Source of the DNA: a virus
Direction: 5' to 3' (one strand)
DNA: 26,491 bases
IMG/VR virus record: IMGVR_UViG_3300006802_000466
Coordinates: 1-26,491 of that record
Below the pieces are notes generated by a model, which ran no database searches, had not been told where the DNA came from, and saw nothing but the letters and a program-made list of their open reading frames with translations. Positions 222 to 13,040 of this stretch are shown piece after piece. Position 1 is the stretch's first letter, and each line of letters opens with the position of its first letter. The position numbers and the translations under genes were made by a program.

Positions 222-652
222 GTGCAGAAAACAACATAGATTCATTTAATAAAATAATCCAACTAATAGAGGAAGGAACGCCACTTAGAAAAGCCGTTTT
301 AGGCATAATGTCTAGCGAAACATTCTATAAGTTGATTCATGATAGCGAAGAACTCACGAAACGGTACGCGCGCGCGTGCGAGGTAAGGGCTGACAAAATG
401 TTCGAGGAAATTCTTGAAATAGCCGACAATAAAGATAATGATATTGAAACATTAGAACTTGATGGCGTAGAAATACAAAAGAGTAATAAAGAAGTTATAG
501 AACGAACAAAGATTCGTATTGATGCGCGCAAATGGATGATAGGTAAAATGCAGCCTAAGAAGTACGGTGATAAGTTAGATGTAACTAGCGCAGGCAATGA
601 AATAAAACAAGCGCCTCCGACAATAACAATAATAAAACCAACCGATGCCTGA
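218..652 (+). CDS. terS: Terminase small subunit
   Basis: Probable DNA-recognition subunit of the packaging motor, 144 residues. The N-terminal half (residues about 8-60) looks like a helix-turn-helix region of the kind used by small terminases: an 'EEGTPLRKAVLG' segment followed by a Tyr/Ala/Arg-rich helix. The C-terminal part carries 'RIDARKWMIGKMQPKKYGDK' at about 101-120, which matches the conserved D-A-R-K-W ... P-K-K-Y-G-D-K signature of many phage small terminases. The gene overlaps the large subunit gene by 8 bases, which supports the assignment. A CG-only palindrome lies inside it at 366-377. Function is inferred from the signature and position; no structure was checked. Confidence 0.85.
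   Translation: MSAENNIDSFNKIIQLIEEGTPLRKAVLGIMSSETFYKLIHDSEELTKRYARACEVRADKMFEEILEIADNKDNDIETLELDGVEIQKSNKEVIERTKIRIDARKWMIGKMQPKKYGDKLDVTSAGNEIKQAPPTITIIKPTDA
366..377. other. 12-base alternating CG palindrome inside terS
   Basis: The sequence ACGCGCGCGCGT reads the same on both strands and encodes Tyr-Ala-Arg-Ala-Cys in terS. It has five consecutive CpG steps in an otherwise AT-rich genome. Packaging start (pac) sites of several headful phages lie inside the small terminase gene, so it is a candidate recognition or nicking site. This is only a positional inference. Confidence 0.25.
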
Positions 653-1988
653 TATTAGGTTTGAGCCTCACCGTAAACAATGGGAAGCATACCAATATTT
701 AACAGACCATGAAACCAGCTTTATCGGTTATGGTGGTGCTGCTTTTGGTGGTAAATCGTATCTAATTTGTTACAATCATCTAATAAACTGCCTAGCATAT
801 CCAAATACTCGTTGGGGATTAGGTAGAAGAGAATTAACCACGCTAAAGAAAACAACATTAATGACGTTGTTTAAAGTGTTTCAAGAAAGTGGAATAAAAG
901 AAGGTGAGCATTATAATTACAACCAACAACTTAACGTAATTAAGTTCTTTAATGATAGTGAGATATTGTTAATAGATACAGCGTATAAACCAAGCGACCC
1001 GTTATATCAAAGGTTTGGAGGTTATGAGTTAACAGGATGCGCGATAGATGAAAGCGGTGAAACAGAGTATAAAGCGATAGAGATATTATTTACTCGTTGC
1101 GGTAGATGGAGGAATAAAGAGTACAATATCAAAGCTAAAATGTTGGAATGTTTCAACCCGTCTAAAGGCCATGTGTATTCGAGATACTATAAACCGTTTA
1201 TAGATGGAAACTTAAAGCCATCATACAAGTTTGTAAAAGCATTGCCGAAAGATAATCCATCTCCTGAAGCATTCGACTATATTAATGGAATTGTAGAAAC
1301 AGCCGATAAAATAACAATTGAAAGGCTTATCTATGGTAATTTTGAATACGATGATGACCCGATGGCACTCATTGATGAGGATAGCATTTCAGATGCTTTC
1401 ACAAATGAACACGTTATAGATGGAGAGGAATTAATCACAGCCGACATTGCGAGGTTTGGTAAAGATACAACGGAGGTATGGCACTGGGCAGGATGGAAGT
1501 TGAAAGCAGTGTACATAATGAAGAAAAACAGCATAACAGAAGCGGCGGACTTCATTAAAAAACTAGCATCCAATAATAAAATACCAATGAGTAGGGTAAT
1601 TGTCGATGAAGATGGTGTTGGTGGAGGTGTTAAGGATATATTGAGATGTGAAGGATTTATTGCCAATTCAAAACCTATCGAATCAACAATACTAAAAGAG
1701 CATAGCATCGACAATTATAAGAATCTTAAAACACAATGCGCATTTATATCGGCTAAGATGGCCAATACTAAAAATGTAATGATTGGTGTTCATCCAGATA
1801 AAGACAAAGTAAAAGAGGAATTAAGATGGCTTAAAAGAAAGGAAAATGATAGTGAAGGGAAAATTGCGTTATTCCCTAAAGAAGAAATTAAGAAGGCTAT
1901 TGGCCGCTCACCTGACAGTTTAGATAACTTAATAATGCGTGGTTATTTTGAAGTAAGAAAAAAAAGAGCGACAATAAGCTCCTTATAA
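645..1988 (+). CDS. terL: Terminase large subunit (ATPase-nuclease)
   Basis: Motor of DNA packaging, 447 residues, a normal length for the family. The ATPase half has a Walker A motif GGAAFGGKS at residues 30-38 and a Walker B end with Asp135-Glu136 in 'GCAIDES'. The RNase H-like nuclease half shows the three expected acidic positions: Asp267 in 'ITADIARFGKDTT', Asp321 in 'VIVDEDGVGGG', and Asp424/Asp427 in 'SPDSLDNL' near the C-terminus. A Gly-Arg-Arg-Glu segment at 60-63 may be part of the adenine or arginine-finger region. It starts inside the end of terS. Unlike most siphoviruses, the portal gene does not follow; it is about 20 kb downstream. Confidence 0.95.
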   Translation: MPDIRFEPHRKQWEAYQYLTDHETSFIGYGGAAFGGKSYLICYNHLINCLAYPNTRWGLGRRELTTLKKTTLMTLFKVFQESGIKEGEHYNYNQQLNVIKFFNDSEILLIDTAYKPSDPLYQRFGGYELTGCAIDESGETEYKAIEILFTRCGRWRNKEYNIKAKMLECFNPSKGHVYSRYYKPFIDGNLKPSYKFVKALPKDNPSPEAFDYINGIVETADKITIERLIYGNFEYDDDPMALIDEDSISDAFTNEHVIDGEELITADIARFGKDTTEVWHWAGWKLKAVYIMKKNSITEAADFIKKLASNNKIPMSRVIVDEDGVGGGVKDILRCEGFIANSKPIESTILKEHSIDNYKNLKTQCAFISAKMANTKNVMIGVHPDKDKVKEELRWLKRKENDSEGKIALFPKEEIKKAIGRSPDSLDNLIMRGYFEVRKKRATISSL

Positions 1989-2028: not shown

Positions 2029-2184
2029 ATGGCAAACGATAAAAAAGAAAAGCCTTTAACGGTCAAACAGCACATCGAGGCTAGTCTAAAGCAAATAGAA
2101 TCCATTAAGCAAAACAGAGCGGGTGAGTACGTAAAGTTCGTGGGAGTTGAAAAGGATTTGCGTAATGCCTTAATGAAGCTATGA
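2029..2184 (+). CDS. Small 51-residue protein of unknown function
   Basis: This short gene starts with ATG in the ATATGGC context seen at several virion genes here and ends in TGA overlapping the next ATG (ATGA), which is good evidence of translation. The product begins MANDKKEKPLTVKQHIEASL and is Lys-rich and helical, with 'GEYVKFVGVEKDLRNALMKL' at the C-terminus. I recognise no domain. It lies directly before the tail assembly chaperone gene, so it may be a small virion or assembly protein. Translational coupling to the chaperone is likely. Confidence 0.6.
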   Translation: MANDKKEKPLTVKQHIEASLKQIESIKQNRAGEYVKFVGVEKDLRNALMKL

Positions 2185-2936
2185 TTATAGTATCAATCAA
2201 CGAAAAACAGTATAATGTTTGTAGCGACTGGAAAGACGTTACGATATTGCATATTGAAAAAGGCTATGCGCTTAAAGAAAAACTAAGCGAATCACTTAAA
2301 AAGTTCTTCTATTCTGCCGATGAGTTTTCATTCAGCAAAGAACAAGAAGTAGAACTAATCAAGTTCGAGAAGGAATGGATTGAAATATTTAGCAACATTC
2401 CTAAAAACATTCTCAATAAAACGGTGTTGGTAAATGAAGAAGGTGATAACATCACATCGCTTTTTAAGTTATGCCAAAAGTTTATGTATGAACCTCAACA
2501 AAACGAGATAGTAATAAATGAGTGTATCGAGTTCAAAGGAGTGAAGTACTATCTACCCGAAAGCGTGACAAGTGCCAAAGGAATTAAAAAGCTATTTGCT
2601 AAAGGAACGTACGAAGAATACATGGAAAGCAGCGCGTTATTCGATGTGTTCAATGAGAAAGGAGATTTAAGCAAACTATCGAGGCTAACAGCTATTTTAT
2701 TTCGTCCTAAGATTAAAGTAGGCTACTTTTGGAATAAAAAGGAAGTAATTGAAGAGTTTGATGAAGAAAAAGTGAACCAAAGAGAGGAGTTATTTAAACA
2801 ACTTCCAATGAATGATGTTTGGGCGGCATACTTTTTTTTTATTCTTTCCAATTGGAAATTGTTAAGCGGTTTGCAAATATCTTTAAAGGAGGCAAACAGC
2901 CTATCAAAACTGGAAGCATTAGCGAACGAATTGTAA
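2181..2936 (+). CDS. Tail assembly chaperone, zero-frame product (gpG-like)
   Basis: This 251-residue protein is most likely the shorter form of a tail assembly chaperone, the role of lambda gpG. The N-terminus ('IIVSINEKQYNVCSDWKDVTILH') has the pattern of a small beta unit followed by a Trp-x-x-Val-Thr segment that I associate with Bacteroidota phage proteins of this type. Near the C-terminus, 'EREELFKQLPMNDVW'-like residues lead into Tyr-Phe-Phe-Phe encoded by TAC and nine T. A second frame, open from just before this run to 3124, has no ATG near its beginning. That gives the classic G/GT arrangement. The oddity is location: it follows terL, while the tape measure is 12.8 kb downstream. 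Family assignment is moderate, the frameshift signal is good. Confidence 0.65.
   Translation: MIIVSINEKQYNVCSDWKDVTILHIEKGYALKEKLSESLKKFFYSADEFSFSKEQEVELIKFEKEWIEIFSNIPKNILNKTVLVNEEGDNITSLFKLCQKFMYEPQQNEIVINECIEFKGVKYYLPESVTSAKGIKKLFAKGTYEEYMESSALFDVFNEKGDLSKLSRLTAILFRPKIKVGYFWNKKEVIEEFDEEKVNQREELFKQLPMNDVWAAYFFFILSNWKLLSGLQISLKEANSLSKLEALANEL
2832..2858 (+). promoter_or_regulatory. Probable -1 ribosomal frameshift site with hairpin
   Basis: Nine T residues (2832-2840) are read as Phe-Phe-Phe in the zero frame and let both tRNAs re-pair after a one-base backward slip. Four bases later comes a perfect 14-base palindrome, TTTCCAATTGGAAA (2845-2858), which can fold as a five-pair stem with an AATT loop. 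The receiving frame opens at 2816 after a TGA at 2813-2815, only about 17 bases before the slip site, as expected if it is entered only by frameshifting. Confidence 0.7.
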
Positions 2937-3124
2937 GTAAGTTATCATGGCAAATAGAAGCGTACAAAATAGCGGAAAAGGGTATGTTCAACAAAGAAGG
3001 ATTAACACCAATAGAAAGCGTTAAGAAAACAAATATCTACGAAATAATGCTTTACACTTCTTTGATGATTGCGGACGGTACACTACAAAGCGAACGAATG
3101 GAACTTGAATATAAAAAGAAATAA
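2840..3124 (+). CDS. Frameshift extension of tail chaperone (gpT-like)
   Basis: This is the -1 frame continuation of the chaperone. Read from the slip at 2840 it gives 94 residues, beginning 'YSFQLEIVKRFANIFKGGKQ' and ending in a Lys-rich tail. With 220 residues from the zero frame the fusion would be 314 residues. Independent translation is unlikely: the frame opens with TTG at 2819 and has no ATG for many codons. The long product would be the analogue of lambda gpGT, whose T part binds the tail tube and whose G part binds the tape measure. Helical content is high ('WQIEAYKIAEKGMF'). The stop is directly followed by the first glycosyltransferase gene at 3125. Confidence 0.65.
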   Translation, partial: YSFQLEIVKRFANIFKGGKQPIKTGSISERIVSKLSWQIEAYKIAEKGMFNKEGLTPIESVKKTNIYEIMLYTSLMIADGTLQSERMELEYKKK

Positions 3125-3832
3125 ATGATACCACGAATATTAGTAGCAGCCCCAACATCAAATCTAAAAGACTATTGTTTTGATGAGTACGCCGAACAAG
3201 TGAGGAACTTTACTTATCCTAATTACGATATCCTTTTAGTAGATAACAGCGAAGATAAAAAGTATCACCATAAGATTTTAGAGGCTGGAATTAGATGTAT
3301 TCACCATAAGCCAAAAGGAAGCCCAATTGAGTATATTACAGAGTGCCAAAACATTATTAGAGGCGTTGCGATAGAGGGCGGTTATGATTATGTGTTTATG
3401 TTAGAGAGTGATGTTTTTGTTCCCGCCAATATTATGGAGCATATGCTTTGCGGTGGTGCGGATGTGTACACGATTACATACTTTATTACTAAGAAAGGAA
3501 AGCATAGCGTTTGTTTACATGGTATGCCAACAAACGAACTAAGAACCTCAACAAAGGTTTTAGAGGAAGATGTAAGCAGTGCCGTTTGGACGGGTGAAAT
3601 AAAAGATATTAAGCAGTTCAAAATAGGTGAAGATTTTAGGCTTTACGGAACTGGCATAGGTTGCACCTTATTCAAAACATCGGTACTAAAAGAAATTCCA
3701 TTTAGAATAGATAAACAGTTTCCTGCTGCATTTTCAGATTCATACTGGTACTTAGACGCAGAACGCGCAGGAATAACAACAATATTAGATACATCACTAA
3801 TAGCAACACATAAATCATTTAAAATAAAATAG
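3125..3832 (+). CDS. GT-A-like glycosyltransferase (family 2 type)
   Basis: A 235-residue protein with the outline of a small GT-A glycosyltransferase. It starts with a strand 'RILVAAPTS', has 'DILLVDNSED' at 35-44 (typical of the family 2 nucleotide-binding strand), and 'YDYVFMLESDVFVP' at 87-100, where Glu94-Ser95-Asp96 occupies the place of the DxD metal motif. The C-terminal 'IATHKSFKIK' may supply the His often found as a metal ligand. No membrane segment is seen. The ATG follows the chaperone stop without a gap. Donor and acceptor cannot be told from sequence. It opens the sugar island and is co-transcribed with it. Confidence 0.8.
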   Translation: MIPRILVAAPTSNLKDYCFDEYAEQVRNFTYPNYDILLVDNSEDKKYHHKILEAGIRCIHHKPKGSPIEYITECQNIIRGVAIEGGYDYVFMLESDVFVPANIMEHMLCGGADVYTITYFITKKGKHSVCLHGMPTNELRTSTKVLEEDVSSAVWTGEIKDIKQFKIGEDFRLYGTGIGCTLFKTSVLKEIPFRIDKQFPAAFSDSYWYLDAERAGITTILDTSLIATHKSFKIK

Positions 3833-3833
3833 T

Positions 3834-4307
3834 ATGCAAGACAAATCAAGCGCCCAAACATTAATCGACGTTAAGAATCAAATTCAAACACTAGAAAATA
3901 GGATTGTTTTTTTAGATACTTACTGTGATATATTAATGGATGAATCGCAAAAAGAAGGACTATCACACTTAGAAAAATGTGAATTATTAGACAAACACTA
4001 TAAATTCACCATTGAAAGACAATCTAAAATTGATTTACTTCACAATAAAAAGCAAACTGAATACTTGCACGAAGAAATGAGCCGTAGAAATGCAGAGTTA
4101 AAATACATGAGTGCTAACATGGCAGCAATGATTAAAGCGGTTAGAACAGCGCCGATGACAATCGAAAACAGTAAGTTACGCAGCGGAATAATTGATAGAT
4201 TTAGCAAAGGATATTCTAAAATAGAAGAACAACGAAACGATTTTAAATTGCTCGGTGCAATTATTAACGAAAGTAAAATTGAATTCACGCCTGTAACGCC
4301 TGAGTAA
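3834..4307 (+). CDS. Coiled-coil protein inside the sugar island, unknown function
   Basis: A 157-residue, largely helical protein with no enzyme motif. Residues about 5-35 ('DVKNQIQTLENRIVFLD') and 70-100 show heptad-like spacing of Leu, Ile and Met, so coiled coils are likely. It begins one base after the preceding glycosyltransferase and its TAA overlaps the ATG of the next one, so it is firmly embedded in the operon. Because its neighbours are all sugar enzymes, it could be an accessory subunit, a scaffold for the enzymes, or a virion protein that is modified. None of these is shown by the sequence. Confidence 0.7.
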   Translation: MQDKSSAQTLIDVKNQIQTLENRIVFLDTYCDILMDESQKEGLSHLEKCELLDKHYKFTIERQSKIDLLHNKKQTEYLHEEMSRRNAELKYMSANMAAMIKAVRTAPMTIENSKLRSGIIDRFSKGYSKIEEQRNDFKLLGAIINESKIEFTPVTPE

Positions 4308-4858
4308 TGAATATTTGGTACAACATACCGTGGAGTAGTGATAAGGATTTAGGGAAAGCGTACAATGATTTCATGCGCTTAATTCCTAATGATGATTACG
4401 CTTGTTTTATTGACCGCGATGCAATGTTCTTAACGCCTTTCTACGGAAAGCAGTTAATCGACATTGTAAACGCGAATAAAGATTGCGGTATATTTGTAGC
4501 TAAAGCGAACCGTATAGGCTGCCAATGGCAAAGAGAGACTAAGATGTGGGACGAACTAGACATGGGCAAACACATACAGAAAGCAACCGAACTCTTTACT
4601 ACTAAATACGATGAGTGTACGGAAGTATCAACCCCTCCGATTGGTGGTAATTATCTAGGTGGCTTTCTTATGTTGGTTTCAAAAAAGGTGTGGGAGAAAG
4701 TAGGAGGATTTAAAGAAGGTATTGGAATGTTAGGGGTAGATAATGAATTGCACTACGCAGCACAAAGACACAAAGAAAAGATATTATTAATGAATGGCGT
4801 TTACCTTTATCACTGGTACAGAGGTGGAAAAGCCGAAAGAAAAGAACATTTACTATGA
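4307..4858 (+). CDS. Short GT-A-like glycosyltransferase
   Basis: At 183 residues this is shorter than a usual family 2 enzyme. It begins almost directly with 'NIWYNIPWSSDKDLGKAYN' and reaches a clear DxD motif, Asp36-Arg37-Asp38 in 'ACFIDRDAMFL'. A later 'GGFLMLVSKKVWEKVGGFKE' block resembles the acceptor-side signature of polypeptide GalNAc-transferase-like and related family 2 enzymes, and 'YHWYRGGK' near the end may give the third metal ligand. The N-terminal nucleotide-binding strands appear reduced. It overlaps the coiled-coil gene by one base and the next glycosyltransferase by four (ATGA). Confidence 0.8.
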   Translation: MNIWYNIPWSSDKDLGKAYNDFMRLIPNDDYACFIDRDAMFLTPFYGKQLIDIVNANKDCGIFVAKANRIGCQWQRETKMWDELDMGKHIQKATELFTTKYDECTEVSTPPIGGNYLGGFLMLVSKKVWEKVGGFKEGIGMLGVDNELHYAAQRHKEKILLMNGVYLYHWYRGGKAERKEHLL

Positions 4859-5625
4859 AATATATCGTCATCGCACACACTAAAGACTACCACGAAAAAG
4901 CAAAGCAGTATTTGTATTCACTAAACAAGTACGCAAAGGATTGTAAGATAAGAATATTGTGTATAGACTTCATGCCTGAAAAAAAAGAAGATTGGATTGA
5001 ATATGCGACCTGCCAATTAACACAACTACCTTCTTTCCGTAGAGGCTGGCCACACAATAGAAAGTTCTATGTTTGCTTAGAAGGTGGCGATTTCCTTCCA
5101 TACTTCGAATGGAATGATGATGATATAATCATTCACACCGACAGCGATATGTTATTGCAGCGTCCTTTCGATATTGACGAACTAACAGCACTTGACAATT
5201 TACAAACAGGAGAAATAGGCGCTAGTAAGTCTGGCTATAAATTAACGCTACGTGAGGAATATTGGAGATTAAAGCCTAAGGCTGGTAATGTGTATGCAAA
5301 ACAATTCTTTCCCGATGGATGGTTAGAGGAAATGTATTGCGCTGGTATCATAGTTGGCCGTGTTGATACGTATAGAATGTTAAGCAAATACTACCTAGAA
5401 AAGATTGATGTTATGATGCATTTATTTGACCATCATGCAGCAGGGCAATGGATATTTAACCAAGCTATTCACACGGAATTACAATTAGTTGATTTAACTA
5501 GCGTGTTTCATTGCGCGGACTGGTTTATTGATATTAAGACCGAAAAGAAAGACGGAAAACTATACTACAACGGTGCAATGTGTTTATTTAACCACACTAA
5601 ATTTGAAGGTGAATGGACGGTGTAA
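4855..5625 (+). CDS. GT-A-like glycosyltransferase with DSD motif
   Basis: A 256-residue protein. The N-terminal 'MKYIVIAHTKDYHEKAKQYL' is the first strand and helix of a Rossmann-like nucleotide-sugar binding region, and Asp96-Ser97-Asp98 in 'IIIHTDSDMLLQRPF' is a textbook DxD metal and nucleotide-sugar motif. The following 'RPFDI' resembles family 8-like enzymes ('D.Dmlvl.p'). The middle has 'CAGIIVGR', typical of the segment that lines the acceptor site. Exact sugar specificity is unknown. ATGA overlaps link it to the upstream gene, and it overlaps the next gene by 13 bases. Confidence 0.8.
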   Translation: MKYIVIAHTKDYHEKAKQYLYSLNKYAKDCKIRILCIDFMPEKKEDWIEYATCQLTQLPSFRRGWPHNRKFYVCLEGGDFLPYFEWNDDDIIIHTDSDMLLQRPFDIDELTALDNLQTGEIGASKSGYKLTLREEYWRLKPKAGNVYAKQFFPDGWLEEMYCAGIIVGRVDTYRMLSKYYLEKIDVMMHLFDHHAAGQWIFNQAIHTELQLVDLTSVFHCADWFIDIKTEKKDGKLYYNGAMCLFNHTKFEGEWTV

Positions 5626-6281
5626 GAAAAATATGTTATACCGCTATATTTGGCGAGTATGATGATTTAAAAGAGCCTAAAGTAATTACTGAAGGATGGG
5701 AGTATGTTTGCTTTACGAATAATCCTAATTTAGTTAGTAGTGTGTGGAAAATAGAGCAATATCACCCACAAGAAAAGCCGAAAAACAAACGAGAAAATTC
5801 ATTGATAGCGCGCTATTTAAAAATAAATGCGCACAAACAATTTGGTGATGAAAATGTTCTATCTATTTGGGTTGATGGGTCTATTGAGATAGCATCTAAT
5901 TTAGATGACTTTGTGAGTAAATATAAAGGCCGAGCATTAACAATAATGAAGCACCCAACAAGAAATTGCGTATATCAAGAGGCTAATGCTTGCATCGGAC
6001 TACAAAAAGATGATGAAGGTATAATAATAGCACAAATGGCAAAATACAAACACTTATATATGCCTGAACACGTTGGAATGGTAGCAAGTGGAGTAATAAT
6101 CAGAACACACAACGAAGAGGTTAATTCATTCTGCGAGAAGTGGTGGGCGCAAGTCAATAGATTTAGTATTCGTGACCAGCTTTCTTTTAATTTTGTCGCA
6201 TGGATTAGCGGCTTTAAATATAGCGTTATGCCTTTTGAGATACTTCGCAACGAAATGAGAATTAAAAAACATTTGAAATGA
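5613..6281 (+). CDS. TOD1/MUCI70-like (DUF616) glycosyltransferase
   Basis: The 222-residue product matches the pattern of the TOD1/MUCI70 glycosyltransferase-like family (formerly DUF616). It has 'YTAIFGEYDDLKEP' at 9-22, 'YVCFTNNP' at 31-38, a basic and Tyr segment 'LIARYLKINAHKQF', the core 'SIWVDGSIEI' at 84-93, and 'TIMKHPTRNCVYQEANAC' after it. Bacterial members are common in polysaccharide loci. The Asp88 of the VDGS core probably replaces a DxD motif. The start overlaps the previous gene by 13 bases, and no better start was seen because the family signature begins at residue 9. Confidence 0.82.
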   Translation: MDGVRKICYTAIFGEYDDLKEPKVITEGWEYVCFTNNPNLVSSVWKIEQYHPQEKPKNKRENSLIARYLKINAHKQFGDENVLSIWVDGSIEIASNLDDFVSKYKGRALTIMKHPTRNCVYQEANACIGLQKDDEGIIIAQMAKYKHLYMPEHVGMVASGVIIRTHNEEVNSFCEKWWAQVNRFSIRDQLSFNFVAWISGFKYSVMPFEILRNEMRIKKHLK

Positions 6282-7018
6282 TTACAGGAATAACCAATAT
6301 AATATTCAGCAAGAACAGAGCAATGCAGCTTCACGCTCTACTTGAAACAATCTTAGTAAGGTGCAATATCTTTGAAAACAATGTTGTGATTTATACACAC
6401 GATGAAATGCACGCTAAATCTTATGATTTACTTATAGATAGATTTCCTAAAGTTACGTGGATTAAAGAAACTATTCTGAAAGAAAACATATTGCAGGCAA
6501 TGAAAACGCAATATACTTGCTTCATGTGCGATGATGATATTATTTTCGATGGCTTTATAGGTGATGTAACGATGTGTGATAAGACGTTTTGCTATTCATT
6601 AAGGCTAGGCCACAACGTAAACAACAACATCGGCCAGCAATGGAACTGGAGGCAAACAAAAACGGCGCATTACAACTATGCTTTTTCTACCGATGGGCAT
6701 ATTTATTCAACCGATGTGATTAAGCCAATGGTTAGCACTATTCGCTTTGACAATCCAAACGTATTTGAATCGGCAATGTTTAAACACGCTGATAGTTTTC
6801 CGCCTTTGATGAGGTCGCCTGAACTGTCTGTTTTAACTTCCTTTAGTGTTAACCGTGTAAGTGATAAGTCACATTGCGCCACATCAAACCAATACAGAGA
6901 AAACGAACTGCATACAATGTACTTAGAGGGTTATTTGATTGACTGGGCAAATATGGATATGACAGGAGTAGATAAGCCTATTTACGAAGAATACGAACTT
7001 AAATTCAAAATAGTATGA
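6278..7018 (+). CDS. GT-A-like glycosyltransferase with DDD motif
   Basis: A 246-residue protein starting with 'TNIIFSKNRAMQLHALLETI', the start of many family 2-like enzymes ('..i.T.NRp..L...l.sl'). Residues 85-87 (Asp-Asp-Asp in 'CFMCDDDIIFDGF') are the DxD motif. The middle ('CYSLRLGHNVNNNIGQQWNW') and end are less conserved. The sequence 'SVNRVSDKSHCATSN' around residues 190-210 may correspond to the acceptor-proximal His region. It has a four-base ATGA overlap with both neighbours, so it is translationally coupled. Substrate unknown. Confidence 0.78.
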   Translation: MITGITNIIFSKNRAMQLHALLETILVRCNIFENNVVIYTHDEMHAKSYDLLIDRFPKVTWIKETILKENILQAMKTQYTCFMCDDDIIFDGFIGDVTMCDKTFCYSLRLGHNVNNNIGQQWNWRQTKTAHYNYAFSTDGHIYSTDVIKPMVSTIRFDNPNVFESAMFKHADSFPPLMRSPELSVLTSFSVNRVSDKSHCATSNQYRENELHTMYLEGYLIDWANMDMTGVDKPIYEEYELKFKIV

Positions 7019-7917
7019 AAATATTAATCACAGGAGGGGCAGGATATAAAGGATGCCTACTCACACAAGAATTACTAAACAAAGGCCATGAAGTGACTGT
7101 GTTAGACAACTTCATGTACGGCCATAGTTCAATAATGCCCTATTTACCTAATCCAAACTTTAAATCGATAAGTAAGGACATTAGAACTATTACAGAAAGT
7201 GATTTAAAGGAATACGATATTATCTATCACTTAGCTGGTATTAGCGGATATCCAGCTTGTGAAAACAATCCTAACAGCGCGCATATGATTAACGTGGAAA
7301 GCACGAAAAGAATAGTTAATCTACTTGGTAGAAGTCAAAAACTAATCTACGCATCCACAACATCATTTTACGGAAAAGCTGGGATTGAATGTGATGAAAC
7401 TAGTTTTTGTAATCCAGTTAGTACGTACGGAGTAACAAAACTACAAGCAGAAGAAATATGTATGCAGAAAGAAAATGCTTTGGCGCTACGATTTGCCACT
7501 ATCTTTGGCGTTACTCAAAGGATGCGCCCTGATTTATTGCTGAATGACTTTGTTTACCGCGCAATGTACGAAAGAACATTGGTTTTATTTGATAGCGCAA
7601 GCAAAAGGACGTTTATTCATATTAAAGATGCGATTAAAAGTTATACCGACTTCGCACATTTAAAAGGAATATACAATGTTGGTAGCAATGATATGAATTT
7701 CAGTAAGCGTGAATTGGCCGACATGGTAGCAAAGCACATTAAGTTTGAGATTATCGAAGCGTCAACGCCCGACAAAGATAAGCGCGACTTCATTATTAAC
7801 TTCGATAAAATACAAAACGAAGGCTTTAAAATTACCGTATCAATGGATGAAGGTATAAAAGAATTGATTAAATTGTACTCATTTTACAACCCATACCCAG
7901 TTTATGCAAAGATTTGA
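7015..7917 (+). CDS. NAD-dependent sugar epimerase/dehydratase (extended SDR)
   Basis: A 300-residue enzyme of the extended short-chain dehydrogenase family, the usual length for UDP-, GDP- or dTDP-hexose epimerases and dehydratases. The dinucleotide motif TGGAGYKG is at residues 6-13, and Asp31 at the end of the second strand favours NAD over NADP. 'DIIYHLAGISG' (68-78) is the fourth-strand motif. The catalytic set is Ser/Thr in 'YASTTSFYG' (112-120), Tyr138 and Lys142 in YGVTK. It would convert an activated sugar for the neighbouring transferases. The product cannot be named. It overlaps the cupin gene by 14 bases. Confidence 0.9.
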   Translation: MKILITGGAGYKGCLLTQELLNKGHEVTVLDNFMYGHSSIMPYLPNPNFKSISKDIRTITESDLKEYDIIYHLAGISGYPACENNPNSAHMINVESTKRIVNLLGRSQKLIYASTTSFYGKAGIECDETSFCNPVSTYGVTKLQAEEICMQKENALALRFATIFGVTQRMRPDLLLNDFVYRAMYERTLVLFDSASKRTFIHIKDAIKSYTDFAHLKGIYNVGSNDMNFSKRELADMVAKHIKFEIIEASTPDKDKRDFIINFDKIQNEGFKITVSMDEGIKELIKLYSFYNPYPVYAKI

Positions 7918-8293
7918 GGAATACGGAATATTACTGGCAATTGCTAGTATTTCAGAGCCTATTAAAGAAGGTACGCAGTTTATTACTGCTAATCATCACG
8001 ACATACAAGTAGGCACTTGGAAATATGAAGCAGGAAAGAAGCTAAACAGCCACTACCACAAAGACAATGAGCGAAGCATAACGCGCACACAGGAATTTAT
8101 TTACGTAAAGAAAGGCAAAATAAAATGCCTCGTTTATGGTTTGGATTCCATTTTAATTAATAGTTTTGTTTTGAGTGAGGGGGATTACGCTACTTTCTTT
8201 AATGGTGGTCATGGATATGAATTCATTGAAGATAGCGAGGTTATAGAAGTGAAATGCGGAGAGTTTAATTATGATGATAAAGTAAGGATATGA
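7904..8293 (+). CDS. Cupin-fold protein of a sugar-modification locus
   Basis: A 129-residue single-domain cupin. Metal ligands expected for the family are visible: His50 and His52 in 'NSHYHKDNER', Glu64 in 'RTQEFIYVKKGKI', and His103 in 'NGGHGYEF'. The last part, 'SEVIEVKCGEF', resembles the 'EVKqGPY' end of small cupins found in surface-polysaccharide loci. Cupins in such loci may act as ketoisomerases or epimerases of nucleotide sugars, but this one lacks a clear match to that catalytic pattern, so its reaction is not assigned. It lies between the SDR enzyme and a methyltransferase with overlapping ends, so a role in the same pathway is inferred. Confidence 0.8.
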   Translation: MQRFEEYGILLAIASISEPIKEGTQFITANHHDIQVGTWKYEAGKKLNSHYHKDNERSITRTQEFIYVKKGKIKCLVYGLDSILINSFVLSEGDYATFFNGGHGYEFIEDSEVIEVKCGEFNYDDKVRI

Positions 8294-8814
8294 GTTTAAA
8301 ATTACATCTTGGCTGCGGTAAACGTAAAATAGAAGGATTTGTACATATTGACAATGACCATTACGAGCATTTAGATTATTGCCGAGATATTCGCGACTTA
8401 TCTATATTTCCTGATAATAGCGTTGATTTAATTTATTCCTCACACGCATTTGAGTATTTCAAAAATCCTGCTGAAGTATTAACAGAGTGGAAAAGGGTAT
8501 TAAAAGAAGGTGGTAAATTAAGGCTTTCAGTTCCCGACTTCGCACAACTGGTGAAAGTATACCGCAAAACTGATGACATAACAAAAGTTAAAGGCGCTTT
8601 ATATGGCCATTGGGGGGATAAACAGCATTTTACTTGTTACGATAAAAGAAGTTTAGGTATGTTGCTTTGGGATGCAGGATTTAGCGCAATAGAGGAATGG
8701 GATTGGAGGTTAACAGAACATTGCAACGTAGATGATTATTCACAAGCATATTTCCCACACATGGATAAAGAAAACGGAATTCAAATAAGTTTAAACATAC
8801 AAGCAATTAAATAA
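8290..8814 (+). CDS. Class I SAM-dependent methyltransferase
   Basis: A 174-residue methyltransferase. Motif I is 'LHLGCGKRKIEGFVHID' (residues 5-21, with Gly8-Cys9-Gly10 binding SAM), followed by acidic Asp21/Asp23 for the ribose. 'FPDNSVDLIYSSHAFEYF' is the motif II/III region and 'EWKRVLKEGGKLRLSVPDF' is motif IV/V. This is the type often named methyltransferase domain 11 in glycan loci. A sugar hydroxyl or amine is a plausible target given the neighbours, but not proven. ATGA and A-overlap junctions connect it to the cupin and the DegT-like gene. Confidence 0.87.
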   Translation: MSLKLHLGCGKRKIEGFVHIDNDHYEHLDYCRDIRDLSIFPDNSVDLIYSSHAFEYFKNPAEVLTEWKRVLKEGGKLRLSVPDFAQLVKVYRKTDDITKVKGALYGHWGDKQHFTCYDKRSLGMLLWDAGFSAIEEWDWRLTEHCNVDDYSQAYFPHMDKENGIQISLNIQAIK

Positions 8815-9524
8815 TGGAGCAAAAGAAAATTGAATACCCATTAGGACAAGGACGATATGAACGCCCCGAAATTCAAATGTGTAGAGACAAAGGTTACGAC
8901 ATTAAAGACCCACGCGATGCGATAAGCATATTCGAAAAGAAGATTGCAGAGTTTACAGGCGCAAAGTATGCGGTGTCAGTTGACAATCTAACTGACGGGT
9001 TGTTCTTATGTTTAGGGATGCTAAATAATCCATTAAATCCTGTTGTAATTCCAAATAGAACATATTGCAGCGTTCCAATGACAATATTAAACGCAGGTTA
9101 CGGATTGCGATTTAAAGATATTACATGGAGTGGAATGTACCAATTAACGCCAATGCCTATTTGGGATTGTGCCGTTTCATTTAAAAAGGATATGTACAAA
9201 GAAGGGCAGTTGATGGTTCTTTCGTTTCAACACAAGAAAAGGCTTTGTATCGGTAAAGGCGGAATGATTCTAACTGATAATGAAGAGTATTACAAATGGC
9301 TTATTGTAGCACGTTACGAAGGTCGTAATTTAGATGTTAACCAATGGGATGATGAATATTCGATGATTGGATGGAATATGTACATGAGTCCTGATGATGC
9401 GGCGCGAGGCATTTTAATCTTTGATGATTTAATAGAAAACAATATTAACTGGGAAGATTGGGCAGGAAGTGAAAACTATCCCGATTTAAGTACTAAAAAA
9501 ATATTTCAAAGATATGCTTCATAA
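8814..9524 (+). CDS. Compact DegT/DnrJ-type aminotransferase-like protein
   Basis: This 236-residue protein keeps the core of DegT/DnrJ/EryC1 aminotransferases but is far shorter than the usual 360-400 residues. Conserved points: 'FEKKIAEFTGAKYAVSVDNL' (start of the fold), Asp118 in 'WDCAV' at the place of the PLP-pairing Asp, and 'SFQHKKRLCIGKGGMILTDN' (137-156), where Lys142 aligns with the Schiff-base Lys of the family's SFH..K.L..G.GG motif. The segment between strands before Asp118 is condensed and most of the C-terminal domain is absent. It may be an active minimal enzyme making an amino sugar, or a binding-only relative. It overlaps the next gene by 11 bases. Confidence 0.75.
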   Translation: MEQKKIEYPLGQGRYERPEIQMCRDKGYDIKDPRDAISIFEKKIAEFTGAKYAVSVDNLTDGLFLCLGMLNNPLNPVVIPNRTYCSVPMTILNAGYGLRFKDITWSGMYQLTPMPIWDCAVSFKKDMYKEGQLMVLSFQHKKRLCIGKGGMILTDNEEYYKWLIVARYEGRNLDVNQWDDEYSMIGWNMYMSPDDAARGILIFDDLIENNINWEDWAGSENYPDLSTKKIFQRYAS

Positions 9525-10149
9525 GATTATTGAACACCTAGAAAAAGGAGAGAATTTCAGCTTTAGCCGATTTGGGGACGGTGAGTGGGCGTGTCTGTTA
9601 GGTAAGAATGGGGCAAACTGTGACGGACACGCTTATTTTCACGATATGGGCGATAGGCTTTTAAAGATTGTAGAAAGTAATCCTAAGTACTATATGGGAT
9701 TACAGACACTTGCCGAAAACACTTACCCTGATGAGATAGCTAAATACCATATTGAATGGGTAGAGAGTGATTGCCTTCATAGAGCAAGTATAAGAGGTGA
9801 AATACAGCCTTTTTTTGATGTGCTAAACACAAAGAATATCGTATTTGTAGGCAACCACCGCCACGAAAAGCAAAACATCATTAAGGTAAATAAATTTATT
9901 GAAGTGCCTATAAATGATTGCTGGAGAAAGTACAAAGAAACATTAGAGCAAATAAGAACAAGTATCGATAAAGACGATGTACTAATCTATTGCGCTTCAA
10001 TGATGGCCAATGTACTTATAGACGATATTTACAACGAGTTTGGCGATACGGTTACTCAAATAGATTGTGGCAGCCTATTCGAACCGTACATGGGTATATC
10101 AATCAGAAGTTATCACAGTAAATTAATTCAAAAACTAAAACAGAAATAA
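9514..10149 (+). CDS. GT-D fold glycosyltransferase (DUF1792-like)
   Basis: A 211-residue protein with 'FSFSRFGDGEWACLL' at 15-29, the hallmark of the GT-D fold (DUF1792) glycosyltransferases, in which Asp22-Gly23-Glu24 is the DxE metal and nucleotide motif replacing the GT-A DxD. Other matches are 'YMGLQTLAENTYPD', 'NIVFVGNHRH' and 'DVLIYCASMMANVLIDDIY' (about 154-173), the segment containing conserved Cys-Ala-Ser and an Asp pair. In streptococci the fold is known as an additional domain in glycosylation of serine-rich adhesins, so protein O-glycan extension is a possible role here. That transfer of function is inference. Confidence 0.85.
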   Translation: MLHKIIEHLEKGENFSFSRFGDGEWACLLGKNGANCDGHAYFHDMGDRLLKIVESNPKYYMGLQTLAENTYPDEIAKYHIEWVESDCLHRASIRGEIQPFFDVLNTKNIVFVGNHRHEKQNIIKVNKFIEVPINDCWRKYKETLEQIRTSIDKDDVLIYCASMMANVLIDDIYNEFGDTVTQIDCGSLFEPYMGISIRSYHSKLIQKLKQK

Positions 10150-10733
10150 TGACACGTTCACAGATTTTAAACAGCCTAATTAAGAAGTTTGGATATAAAA
10201 CCTTTTTAGAGATTGGCGTAAATAATGGCATCAACTTCGAATCAATCAATTCGGAATACAAAGTAGGCGTTGACCCAGACCCGAAAAGCCCAGCAACATT
10301 AAAAATCACTAGCGATAAGTTTTTTGAAACTAACAACCAAAAGTTTGATTTAATATTCGTTGATGGGTTGCATCATGCTGACCAAGTGTACAAAGATATT
10401 TTGAACTCGTTGGACTTCCTAGAAGATGGTGGCGCAATATTAGTTCACGACTGCAATCCATTAACAGAGGCTAGTCAAATAGTACCACGTATGCAAACAT
10501 ATTGGCATGGTGATGTATGGAAAGCATGGGTAAAACTACGCGCCGAAAGATATGATTTATCAATGTTTGTAATAGATACAGATTGCGGTTGCGGACTAAT
10601 TACCAAAGGCGTTCAGGATAAATTAGTTACGAGTGAAGAAATAAATTATAAAAATCTTGAAAAGCATAGAGAAAATTGGTTAAATTTGAAAACAAAAGAA
10701 TATTATACTGAATGGTTAGAGAAATCAAAATAA
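10149..10733 (+). CDS. Class I methyltransferase (Methyltransf_24-like)
   Basis: A 194-residue protein with the SAM motif I 'FLEIGVNNGINFESI' (residues 19-33), an acidic 'VGVDPDP' (39-45), then 'FDLIFVDGLHHADQVYKDIL' (66-85), and 'GGAILVHDCNP' (94-104). The VDG..H and HD pair are typical of the Methyltransf_24 group found in sugar and glycosylation loci. The last 60 residues are helical and less conserved. It is the last gene before a strong intrinsic terminator, so it closes the sugar operon. Methylation of a terminal sugar is the natural reading, not shown directly. Confidence 0.83.
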   Translation: MTRSQILNSLIKKFGYKTFLEIGVNNGINFESINSEYKVGVDPDPKSPATLKITSDKFFETNNQKFDLIFVDGLHHADQVYKDILNSLDFLEDGGAILVHDCNPLTEASQIVPRMQTYWHGDVWKAWVKLRAERYDLSMFVIDTDCGCGLITKGVQDKLVTSEEINYKNLEKHRENWLNLKTKEYYTEWLEKSK

Positions 10734-10754: not shown

Positions 10755-10784
10755 AAAGGAGGGGGTATTTTTGCCCCCTTTTTT
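10755..10784 (+). terminator. Intrinsic terminator after the sugar island
   Basis: GGGGG (10761-10765) pairs with CCCCC (10774-10778) around an eight-base loop, the stem can extend outward through A-T and G-T pairs, and six T follow (10779-10784). This is a strong rho-independent terminator directly after the methyltransferase gene and 12 bases before the next ATG. Confidence 0.88.
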
Positions 10785-10795
10785 AATTTATTTAT

Positions 10796-11275
10796 ATGGC
10801 AAATATTGATACTATAATAACCGAACTAGAAACTATTGCAAACGCGAGTACTGCGATAGAATCATTCATGTATAAGCGTGTGAGTGAAGTTAACGCAACA
10901 CTTAACACGCCTTTTCCTTTGTTACTTGTAGATTCTGTGCCTAAGATTACTAGAGGAGAGGTAAATAATTCATTCTTACCGCGCAAGAAGAGGTATAACG
11001 TAGATGTTTATTTGTACAACACGTACAACTATGATACAAGAAGCACCACAGATTTAAGCGCAAAACAAGCTGAACTAGAAACTATACTAGACCAGTACAC
11101 AGCAGAAGTGATAAGAAGATGTGTAAATGTAACAACTTCGATAATGCTTGTCGATAGAGCCGCTATAAGTGGTTTTGTCGCAAATGATGTTCACAATCAA
11201 AAGTTAGTACAAGTTAGTTACAGATTTACATTTGAAGTAGATAGTAGTTGTACTTTGGGAACTTTTAACTATTAG
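10796..11275 (+). CDS. Neck / tail-completion protein
   Basis: A 159-residue virion protein. The order of features, a helical start ('IDTIITELETIANAS') followed by strands 'FPLLLVDSVP' and 'RYNVDVYLYNTYNYD', then a long helix and a final strand pair ('VQVSYRFTFEV'), resembles tail terminator or completion proteins that cap the tail tube. I recognise this by pattern, not by a diagnostic motif. It begins a new transcription unit just after the terminator, with ATATGGC start context and no clear promoter box. It is followed after two bases by a gp10-like gene, the usual partner. Confidence 0.6.
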   Translation: MANIDTIITELETIANASTAIESFMYKRVSEVNATLNTPFPLLLVDSVPKITRGEVNNSFLPRKKRYNVDVYLYNTYNYDTRSTTDLSAKQAELETILDQYTAEVIRRCVNVTTSIMLVDRAAISGFVANDVHNQKLVQVSYRFTFEVDSSCTLGTFNY

Positions 11276-11277
11276 CC

Positions 11278-11787
11278 ATGAGTTTAATTCTAACCGAACA
11301 ACTTAAATCTATTGGTAAGCTACTTCAAAAGGAGTTGGTTGATGAGTTGGTTAGGCAAGGCCATGTAAATACTGGTGATTTAGCCGCTTCAATTGATTTC
11401 AAGATAGATATTACAAATGAAGGCGCTGAAATATTCGCAGGCTCTAACTTAGATTATGCGGAATGGGTTAATAACGGTAGAAAGGCAGGAGGTAAAAAAG
11501 TACCTATTGCAGTTTTAATTCAATGGGTAGAAGATAAAGGACTTGCAACAAATGATGATGAAATAAAAAGTATTGCGTACGCTATTCGACAAACAATATA
11601 TAAGGAAGGTATTCCTTCGCCGAACTCATTTAAGTTTAGTGAAACAGGAAGCCGAACTAAATTTGTTGAAACGGTGGCAGGAGAGCAATATTATACGGTA
11701 GTTAAAATGGTAGAAGATTTTGCTATCGGACAAGTAGAAAAAAGTATAAAAACAATGGTGACAAACTTTAATAAAAATAACGCATGA
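11278..11787 (+). CDS. HK97 gp10-like neck protein
   Basis: A 169-residue protein with the pattern of the HK97 gp10-like family: 'GHVNTGDLAASIDFKI' (29-44), 'YAEWVNNGRKAGGKKVP' (61-77), then 'AVLIQWVEDKGL' and 'SIAYAIRQTIYKEGIPSPNSF' (102-122). Members join head and tail. The stretch with the Tyr-Ala and Asn-Gly-Arg residues is the best hallmark. The end (Lys and Asn-rich) is variable. Its TGA overlaps the ATG of the next gene. Confidence 0.8.
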   Translation: MSLILTEQLKSIGKLLQKELVDELVRQGHVNTGDLAASIDFKIDITNEGAEIFAGSNLDYAEWVNNGRKAGGKKVPIAVLIQWVEDKGLATNDDEIKSIAYAIRQTIYKEGIPSPNSFKFSETGSRTKFVETVAGEQYYTVVKMVEDFAIGQVEKSIKTMVTNFNKNNA

Positions 11788-13040
11788 CAGTAGTACTATT
11801 AGAATATCAAAGTAGGTTAACATCGCCTGCGTGCGCGTACAAGCCGTTAATATGGAAATTTGCTAGTACAGATGCTAACATTGTTAGAATGAAGTTTGAT
11901 GTATATGTAACAAACGAAGATTATCCATCTGCTAATTTAGCATCTACTATTTATCATGACTTCGATATTGATAGTACTACGTTTACTTTCGATTTATCGG
12001 ATGTAGCAAAAGACAATCTAGGCTTTAAATTAATAGACATCGATTCGTCAACTAGTAATTATGAAGATAGGGTAGGCGCTATATGGATGCACGGAGGTAT
12101 TACAGAAATAATAGAAAGTTCTTCAGGATTACTAGAGGAAGGAACAACAACAGCACTAGGTAAAGTGGATGTGTACAATATTACTGGGTCGGTGGGTCAA
12201 ATAGTAAGCTATACAAGAAATGATAATTTCTGCAACTATGCCAATATGAAGAAGTTTTTAACTTCATATCCTACTGGAGTTGCAAGCGATTCACCAGCGC
12301 AGCCGCCAACAAGATTAAAAGAAATAGGTAGAGATGAGAATGAGTTCTTAGGCTTTGGTATTACGCCGACTATTGGCGCGTTAGACACGATTAAAATAGA
12401 GATATATGGTTACAATTCAGTAGGCAGTTTGATAATAAACTCTGTATTGAAAACATGGAATGCCAGCACGCTAGGCGCTTTTGATGGTTACAGTAACAAC
12501 TATTTCACATTTCCAGTAGGCACGGCTAATTTAGAGGCAGCAGGAATAGATACGAGCCAGTTATATAGGTACTACATACTTATATCTAACCAAACAGCAG
12601 GTCTGGGCGCTAGTGAGTTTTTTGGATATAAAGTAGTTGATAGATGCGAAGAAAGCACGCGCATTCACTGGCAAAATAGATTTGGCAAAACAGATTCATA
12701 TACATTTGAAGGGAGAAAAATATATTCTCGAGATTCAAAAAGTGAAATAGCTATAAGACCATTGAGGAATGGTTTTACTACAAAAGATGTAGGTAGTTTT
12801 TCTTTTAATACTAATACAGAGGAAGTATATGAAATATGGACGAAAGCGATAGGTAGAGATGAATTACAATGGCTTTCAGAAATAAACATAAATAACAGGG
12901 CTTTTATTGAAATTGATAAAGAGTACTATTCTATTATTATAGAAGATAGTTCATATAGCCTTATTGATTCTGAAGAGGTAGTGTATCAATTCAAATTAAC
13001 ATTTAGAATAGCTAACAGCATAAAAGGGTTGAGAGGATGA
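11784..13040 (+). CDS. Tail structural protein, unknown subtype
   Basis: A 418-residue, beta-rich protein beginning 'MTVVLLEYQSRLTSPACAYKPLIWKF', a Pro/Ala/Tyr start I associate with Bacteroidota phage tail proteins, with no signal peptide or coiled coil. Its C-terminal third ('SYTFEGRKIYSRDSKSEIAIRP', 'VGSFSFNTNTEEVYEIWTKAIGRDELQWLSE') looks like a Dit-like or hub-associated fold, but no diagnostic motif is present. It overlaps gp10-like and the next large tail gene by four bases each. A distal tail or tail-tip component is the best guess. Confidence 0.6.
   Translation: MTVVLLEYQSRLTSPACAYKPLIWKFASTDANIVRMKFDVYVTNEDYPSANLASTIYHDFDIDSTTFTFDLSDVAKDNLGFKLIDIDSSTSNYEDRVGAIWMHGGITEIIESSSGLLEEGTTTALGKVDVYNITGSVGQIVSYTRNDNFCNYANMKKFLTSYPTGVASDSPAQPPTRLKEIGRDENEFLGFGITPTIGALDTIKIEIYGYNSVGSLIINSVLKTWNASTLGAFDGYSNNYFTFPVGTANLEAAGIDTSQLYRYYILISNQTAGLGASEFFGYKVVDRCEESTRIHWQNRFGKTDSYTFEGRKIYSRDSKSEIAIRPLRNGFTTKDVGSFSFNTNTEEVYEIWTKAIGRDELQWLSEININNRAFIEIDKEYYSIIIEDSSYSLIDSEEVVYQFKLTFRIANSIKGLRG

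Follow-up and report, generated by a model that had tools for sequence, protein, structure and literature searches.

The DNA that we analyzed, IMG/VR virus record IMGVR_UViG_3300006802_000466 (positions 1 to 26,491; the window hereafter), is a 26.5-kb record of unknown completeness that carries an island of 12 genes at positions 3125–10733. We favor the reading that the 12 genes are an exchangeable locus for glycan biosynthesis in a siphophage, flanked by the tail-assembly chaperone on one side and the tail-completion genes on the other. Its products would form a soluble pathway that builds a methyl-capped glycan on a virion protein, a reading to which we assign a probability of about 0.6. A first-pass annotation of the sequence had described a tight operon here, and all 12 open reading frames (ORFs) are indeed present on one strand, with neighbors that overlap by 1–14 nt or abut within 1 nt. 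The first, GT1, starts directly 3′ of the stop codon of the ORF ending at 3124. Using Pfam, PHROG, and NCBIfam for the family assignments, we obtained the following gene list.

3125..3832, + strand: GT1, putative glycosyltransferase (weak Anp1 match, 0.008)
3834..4307, + strand: CC, coiled-coil protein (comparable proteins at this position in six phages)
4307..4858, + strand: GT2, glycosyltransferase (phrog_14179, 4e-27; phrog_26101 positions 228-401)
4855..5625, + strand: GT3, putative glycosyltransferase (DSD motif only)
5613..6281, + strand: GT4, TOD1/MUCI70-like glycosyltransferase (PF04765, 1e-20; phrog_26101 positions 2-196)
6278..7018, + strand: GT5, putative GT-A-like transferase (FMCDDDII invariant in four phages)
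7015..7917, + strand: SDR, nucleotide-sugar dehydrogenase/epimerase (Epimerase, 9e-31; PDB 6vo6, 1e-63)
7904..8293, + strand: cupin, probable sugar isomerase or epimerase (weak Cupin_2 match, 0.016)
8290..8814, + strand: MT1, Methyltransf_11-type methyltransferase (PF08241, 9e-13)
8814..9524, + strand: compact DegT-type aminotransferase of 236 aa (PF01041, 2e-17; K142, D118)
9514..10149, + strand: GT-D-like glycosyltransferase (PF22882, 2e-5, under the Pfam cut-off)
10149..10733, + strand: MT2, Methyltransf_24-type, probable sugar O-methyltransferase (PF13578, 5e-10)

Family models back four of the six proposed glycosyltransferases (two of them weakly); for one there is conservation together with a DxD-like motif only, and for GT3 a motif alone. 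Their relatives lie in other contigs, which we denote by locus number. GT1 relatives share 39–52% identity in L004, L135, L145, and L150 and keep an invariant ESD motif, while GT4 and GT2 match the N-terminal and C-terminal halves, respectively, of the fused gp40 of Cellulophaga phage phi12:1. GT5 has no family match in Pfam, PHROG, or NCBIfam, and its relatives are 45–48% identical in L135 and L136 and 34% in L304. For GT3, the same three collections and a sequence-only PDB search gave no match, and its single relative is the 96% identical copy in a sister phage; sequence-only PDB searches with GT4 and MT2 were likewise empty. Thus, where the first-pass annotation had counted five GT-A-like enzymes, three stand, GT5 is plausible from its motif, and GT3 is undecided with one motif and one relative. 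The GT-D-like enzyme named there falls below Pfam's cut-off, yet has relatives of 39–48% identity in four contigs (L135, L136, L145, and L010) and is a right-edge gene in relatives. Family matches were found for the remaining enzymes that it listed (SDR, cupin, two methyltransferases, and DegT), that of the cupin being weak. In L135 and L136, relatives of the cupin share 45–47% and those of MT1 55–58% identity, and MT2 has relatives at 42 viral loci. The coiled-coil protein is a possible scaffold or acceptor; its counterpart in L150 was assigned by position and a weak alignment only.

A sister phage contig (3300020043_002178) holds all 12 island genes. Compared with it, the nonsynonymous divergence (dN) of these genes is 0.013–0.064 and the synonymous divergence (dS) a near-saturated 0.40–1.05, with dN/dS of 0.02–0.08; the tail genes give similar dN/dS values. 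This shows that the island is a real functional unit under purifying selection. In the sister island, an FkbM methyltransferase between GT5 and SDR brings the count to 13 genes. Since this gene also lies 3′ of GT5 in L135, L136, and L145, its loss from the window is most likely. The sister encodes a second FkbM methyltransferase (L003:2827-3342) outside the island, upstream of the terminase. The sister terminase (L003:4771-5847) is of the Terminase_3/3C kind, another type than the large terminase upstream of the island in the window (645–1988), while tail and island proteins are ∼95% identical. The island is thus more stable than the adjoining terminase.

The slot that the island occupies is bounded by the following features.

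2181..2936, + strand: tc1, first ORF of the tail-assembly chaperone, left slot boundary (position, weak homology)
2819..3124, + strand: tc2, −1 frame extension of the chaperone (TAC-TTT-TTT-TTT slippery run in the overlap)
10755..10784, + strand: terminator-like hairpin closing the island (13 pairs, then T-rich)
10796..11275, + strand: neckA, tail terminator-like gene, right slot boundary (relatives at the slot, with or without an island)
11278..11787, + strand: HK97-gp10-like tail completion protein (PF04883, 8e-5)

A placement between the tail chaperone and the neck genes had been proposed from the first reading, and it is borne out by the 0/−1 ORF pair upstream and the HK97-gp10-like protein downstream. 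An ORF 35% identical to tc1 lies at the same place in L004 and one of 30% in L140; the PHROG match of tc1 is phrog_25418, at 1e-3 only. The T-run in the overlap at 2819–2936, TTTTTTTTT, is conserved in three phages (window, sister, and L004) together with the 0/−1 arrangement, and is the likely −1 frameshift site. A tail-assembly chaperone made by frameshifting fits this conserved overlap, without direct family proof. On the other side, neckA has no family match of its own in Pfam or PHROG, and the order continues with the HK97-gp10-like protein, two tail proteins, and the tape measure. The large tail protein at 13037–15742 contains a weak C1q-like stretch (residues 269–338) just below the Pfam cut-off.

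A search with GT5 found two further filled slots, L135 (3300022670_000259) and L136 (3300022707_001515). Their island proteins are mostly 42–67% identical to those of the window, while their neckA, gp10, tailA, and tailB are only 24–37% identical. As L135 continues to the left into the chaperone pair and the terminase, it represents the same slot; in L136, only the right edge is visible. Both have a gene order unlike that of the window and add a sulfotransferase-like gene, named by eye, whose homologue in the 61-kb contig L145 (3300037247_000367) matches no Pfam family at 0.001; a clear Sulfotransfer_2 protein adjoins GT-D and MT2 in L010. The slot of L145 contains an island of ∼19 kb, which begins with GT1, the coiled coil, GT2, GT5, FkbM, and more transferases, including one of GT11 type, and goes on with a two-part transketolase, a radical SAM protein, DegT, MT2, GT4, and GT-D before reaching neckA. 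Smaller versions occur in L150 (four genes: GT1, the coiled-coil gene, a transferase, and a hexapeptide acyltransferase) and L004 (seven genes, including a GT29 sialyltransferase type, with the right edge beyond the contig). GT1 comes first in every island whose left edge is visible, with the coiled coil directly or nearly next to it; GT4, GT-D, and MT2 form the right edge, and the middle genes vary.

The transketolase of the 61-kb contig is split over two adjacent genes (L305:1409-2607). The same contig has a TnpB/OrfB-type gene and a DDE transposase (L306:2853-4031 and 7604-8842), and the same short WVYGDARVYGNA-type repeat protein is found at both of its ends (L307:1-537 and L306:12970-13209). 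By eye it gave the impression of a circular contig, but its ends lack an exact overlap, so we do not call it complete.

With tailB as a query we obtained 80 contigs (not deduplicated), 44 of which show both the chaperone and tailB in the fetched stretch. The slot is empty in 42 of the 44, with 2.3–3.8 kb from chaperone to tailB, and in the empty-slot contigs with a recognizable neckA this gene starts 76–412 nt past the chaperone match. The remaining two are L150 and L154 (5.3 kb). In the window, 7.67 kb separate the chaperone end from neckA. By this comparison, the island is a self-contained block that only a minority of these phages have gained, always at a single junction. A DNA-level search against cultured phages found nothing. 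The first-pass annotation had held that few phages have so large a set; comparable sets do occur in large Flavobacterium and marine phages, but a fixed slot in small siphophages is unusual.

Gene order that varies among phages and a slot that is empty in most relatives are also what one might expect of neutral or mobile cargo, a “moron” region taken from host polysaccharide clusters and without a virion-linked role. We consider this very improbable given the dN/dS of 0.02–0.08 at such high dS, a gene set shared in the same slot at 42–67% identity, and an island GC content equal to that of the flanks and of the phage. The conserved edges and exchangeable middle could tentatively be read as a “serotype locus” of the particle, through which related phages would carry different glycans.

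The enzymes of the island suggest what kind of sugar might be made. For SDR, the best solved relative is 6vo6, which aligns over nearly the full length and which we take to be Cj1427 of Campylobacter jejuni. Cj1427 catalyzes the C4 dehydrogenation of GDP-heptose for the Campylobacter capsule (PMC10680097); the enzymes that follow it there are not the same set in the phage. In an alignment with 9bgp, K142 of the DegT protein falls on the SFHPRK lysine; it is the pyridoxal phosphate lysine in the SFxxxK motif of the DegT/DnrJ/EryC1/StrS family. Together with D118 and the cupin, this suggests a sugar that becomes 4-keto and is then epimerized or converted to a 4-amino sugar. As for MT2, its relatives in Flavobacterium, Kaistella, Christiangramia, and other genomes adjoin polysaccharide ATP-binding cassette (ABC) exporters and transferases (judged by eye), which makes sugar O-methylation the natural reading.

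The DegT protein has 236 aa, compared with ∼370 in solved enzymes, and compact relatives are very common in phage contigs, with at least 581 in IMG/VR. We took the best 80 of these (loci L224-L303), of which 76 were readable; nearly all complete ones have 197–265 aa (median 212), and both K142 and D118 are kept in 76 of 76. A search of 198 Bacteroidota genomes for a compact DegT gave none at 1e-25; its control, five phage sequences, scored 1e-80 or better in every case. Another recognizable island gene lies within 5 kb at 28 of the 80 best loci. By these sequence features, the protein looks like a member of a phage-borne family of minimal aminotransferases.

We then considered where the glycan would be placed. 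No clear membrane-type segment was found in the island proteins of the window and four relatives, the top hydropathy being 1.63 in one DegT copy compared with 2.2 for a holin-like control protein, and the island ORFs of the 61-kb contig have none either, save one opposite-strand ORF. The window island lacks a flippase, a polyprenol transferase, and a membrane glycosyltransferase of gtrABC type, whether judged by family or by hydrophobic segment, and enzymes for export, polymerization, and membrane initiation are absent from it and from the ORFs seen in the islands of relatives. This argues against serotype-conversion cassettes, since such cassettes work across the membrane. Soluble transferases also build lipopolysaccharide (LPS), so solubility does not by itself settle the choice between virion and host surface.

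The main rival, which we regard as unlikely, is that the island changes the host surface, with soluble transferases modifying the LPS core, O-antigen, or the general Bacteroidota O-glycan precursor at the inner membrane face, leading to altered receptors and exclusion of other phages. Sugar-nucleotide enzymes and transferases sit together in one operon here, a trait of O-antigen and capsule loci; DegT/SDR/cupin sets are typical of O-antigen loci, and the cellular MT2 relatives of Flavobacterium, Kaistella, and Christiangramia lie within polysaccharide clusters. The glycosyltransferases of pelagimyophages, partly near tail-fiber genes, have been read as host-surface modifiers (PMC7029224). Bacterial loci of the ABC-transporter type resemble the island in having MT2, DegT, SDR, cupin, and transferase types as well as conserved edges and a variable middle, but the island differs in having no transporter, polymerase, initiating membrane transferase, or ligase. 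The absence of these, of a flippase, of a polyprenol-phosphate transferase, and of any other clear membrane protein speaks against the host surface, as do the ties to virion genes in several unrelated contexts. In addition, a new surface would bring little gain late in a lytic cycle, and we saw no sign of lysogeny in the window.

Those ties are of several kinds. In L135 and L145, GT-D is the last gene of the island and overlaps the start of neckA by 16 and 4 nt, respectively. In Cellulophaga phages, a core of MT2 and GT4-GT2, the last two fused, lies between head-morphogenesis and protease genes; the core also accompanies related head genes in L042, L046, and L047 and is found near tail genes in some large contigs, L005 among them. 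In L010, GT-D and MT2 precede portal and protease genes. That a glycan island goes with virion genes is well supported by the shared slot, the overlaps with neckA, purifying selection, and the MT2 relatives in polysaccharide clusters. The first-pass annotation named virion proteins and nascent host surface without deciding between them. The fact that unrelated phages have such genes coupled to tail or head genes, together with the lack of a membrane transferase, flippase, or polymerase, favors a virion protein as the probable acceptor; the immune masking also raised there found no support here.

Several points weigh against a virion glycan. Many bacterial polysaccharide transferases are also soluble, which keeps the host surface possible, and the window is a fragment, so membrane genes could lie outside it. 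Adjacency to virion genes is modest evidence alone, given that late genes fill about half of such genomes, and a survey of Ser/Thr-rich stretches in virion proteins revealed no clear acceptor. GT3 and GT5 are called transferases by motif only, their AlphaFold2 models being poor (mean predicted local distance difference test score, ∼30), and both acceptor and glycan are so far predictions. Lastly, the terminator-like hairpin parts the island from the downstream tail genes in the window phage. It is the strongest hairpin of its region and is identical in the sister; the surrounding stretch shows a single difference between the two phages, compared with dS of ∼0.5–0.7 at synonymous sites of the flanking genes. 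Co-transcription is consequently likelier with the upstream tail chaperone, and the earlier proposal of expression with structural genes is qualified accordingly.

Matches to sigma-70-type promoters were no more frequent than in shuffles, whereas a Bacteroidota-type pattern occurs eight times in the whole window versus 2.2 expected, a count that none of 100 shuffles reached; these matches are not located at the island edges. An Rfam search returned nothing. The host is probably a member of the Bacteroidota, the sole basis being the terminase, which has its best match in Flavobacterium phage 11b (44%). A search of 395 Bacteroidota genomes, run without a positive control, found no prophage that carries the tail protein.

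Some phages are known to glycosylate their DNA by transferases, and the island products could in principle decorate a modified base of the phage DNA. The PHROG family of MT2 is labeled “DNA methyltransferase,” and the Cellulophaga relative is counted among DNA methyltransferases (PMC11946311). We consider a DNA role very improbable. The only Pfam models that MT1 and MT2 match are of the class-I small-molecule type, with no DNA-methylase model among them, and sulfo-, sialyl-, and fucosyltransferase-type genes as well as the relatives in polysaccharide clusters point to a surface glycan. In agreement with the first-pass annotation, which saw little support for a modified-DNA role, no base-modifying enzyme was found in the window, the left part of the sister, or the sampled ORFs of the 61-kb contig.

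The Cellulophaga phages phi12:1, phi17:1, and phi18:1 share these enzyme types with the window: an MT2-like gene lies beside a GT4-GT2 fusion (a gp39-gp40-type pair) in their head gene block. They differ from the window in having two genes only, in another slot, published as a DNA methyltransferase plus a glycosyltransferase. For phi12:1 gp39 (L007:10546-11013), both PHROG family 27561 and the published phi18:1 annotation say DNA methyltransferase. The neighbors and family of gp39 suggest a sugar methyltransferase instead, and the PHROG family so labeled is probably one of sugar methyltransferases, which puts the label in question.

Under the virion reading, SDR, cupin, DegT, and MT1 would start from a nucleotide sugar of the host and yield a rare one (first 4-keto, then epimerized or 4-amino, then methylated). 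The soluble transferases, GT1 first and then GT2–GT5 and GT-D, would assemble a short chain in the cytoplasm, on which MT2 would place an O-methyl cap. The most likely acceptor would be a protein of the virion whose assembly falls in the same late stage. Through the variable middle genes, particle glycans would differ among related phages, in the manner of bacterial O-antigen loci, and the benefit would probably be a masked or changed particle surface.

Comparable systems are known. Mycobacteriophages encode transferases that glycosylate their capsid and tail tube (PMC12363180, where Freeman et al. 2023 is cited for virion glycosylation in Che8, Corndog, and Myrna). The phage-coded glycosyltransferases are common to both, but the capsid/tail glycan is shown there and proposed here, and mycobacteriophages have one or two transferases compared with six plus sugar-making enzymes in the window. 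No mycobacteriophage was among the matches of GT1, GT4 (tblastn), MT2, or DegT, the other transferases not having been searched. In chloroviruses, virus-coded GT-GT-methyltransferase enzymes act on the capsid outside the endoplasmic reticulum (PMC7019647). A064R of PBCV-1 has the make-up of the phi12:1 GT-GT fusion next to its methyltransferase, and PBCV-1 shares with the window virus-coded transferases without membrane segments and a methyltransferase cap, a likeness of function; it differs in being a eukaryotic virus with a known acceptor, Vp54. Flavobacterium phage immuto (L008, 49172-59988 of the record), a 160-kb cultured phage, has a compact DegT, glycosyltransferases, a methyltransferase, and an epimerase in one run of similar size, but no virion genes are annotated next to this run within the part of the record that was read. 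Judged against open-access papers and databases, then, phage-encoded glycosylation is known, and what is new is the slot-bound exchangeable island and the compact aminotransferase family.

Phage particles are usually treated as bare protein. Since cultured Cellulophaga phages have the same core enzymes, the question of a particle glycan is testable now. If the virion reading is true, particle glycans would be a regular, evolving trait of uncultured phages, one that bears on adsorption, predation, and recognition.

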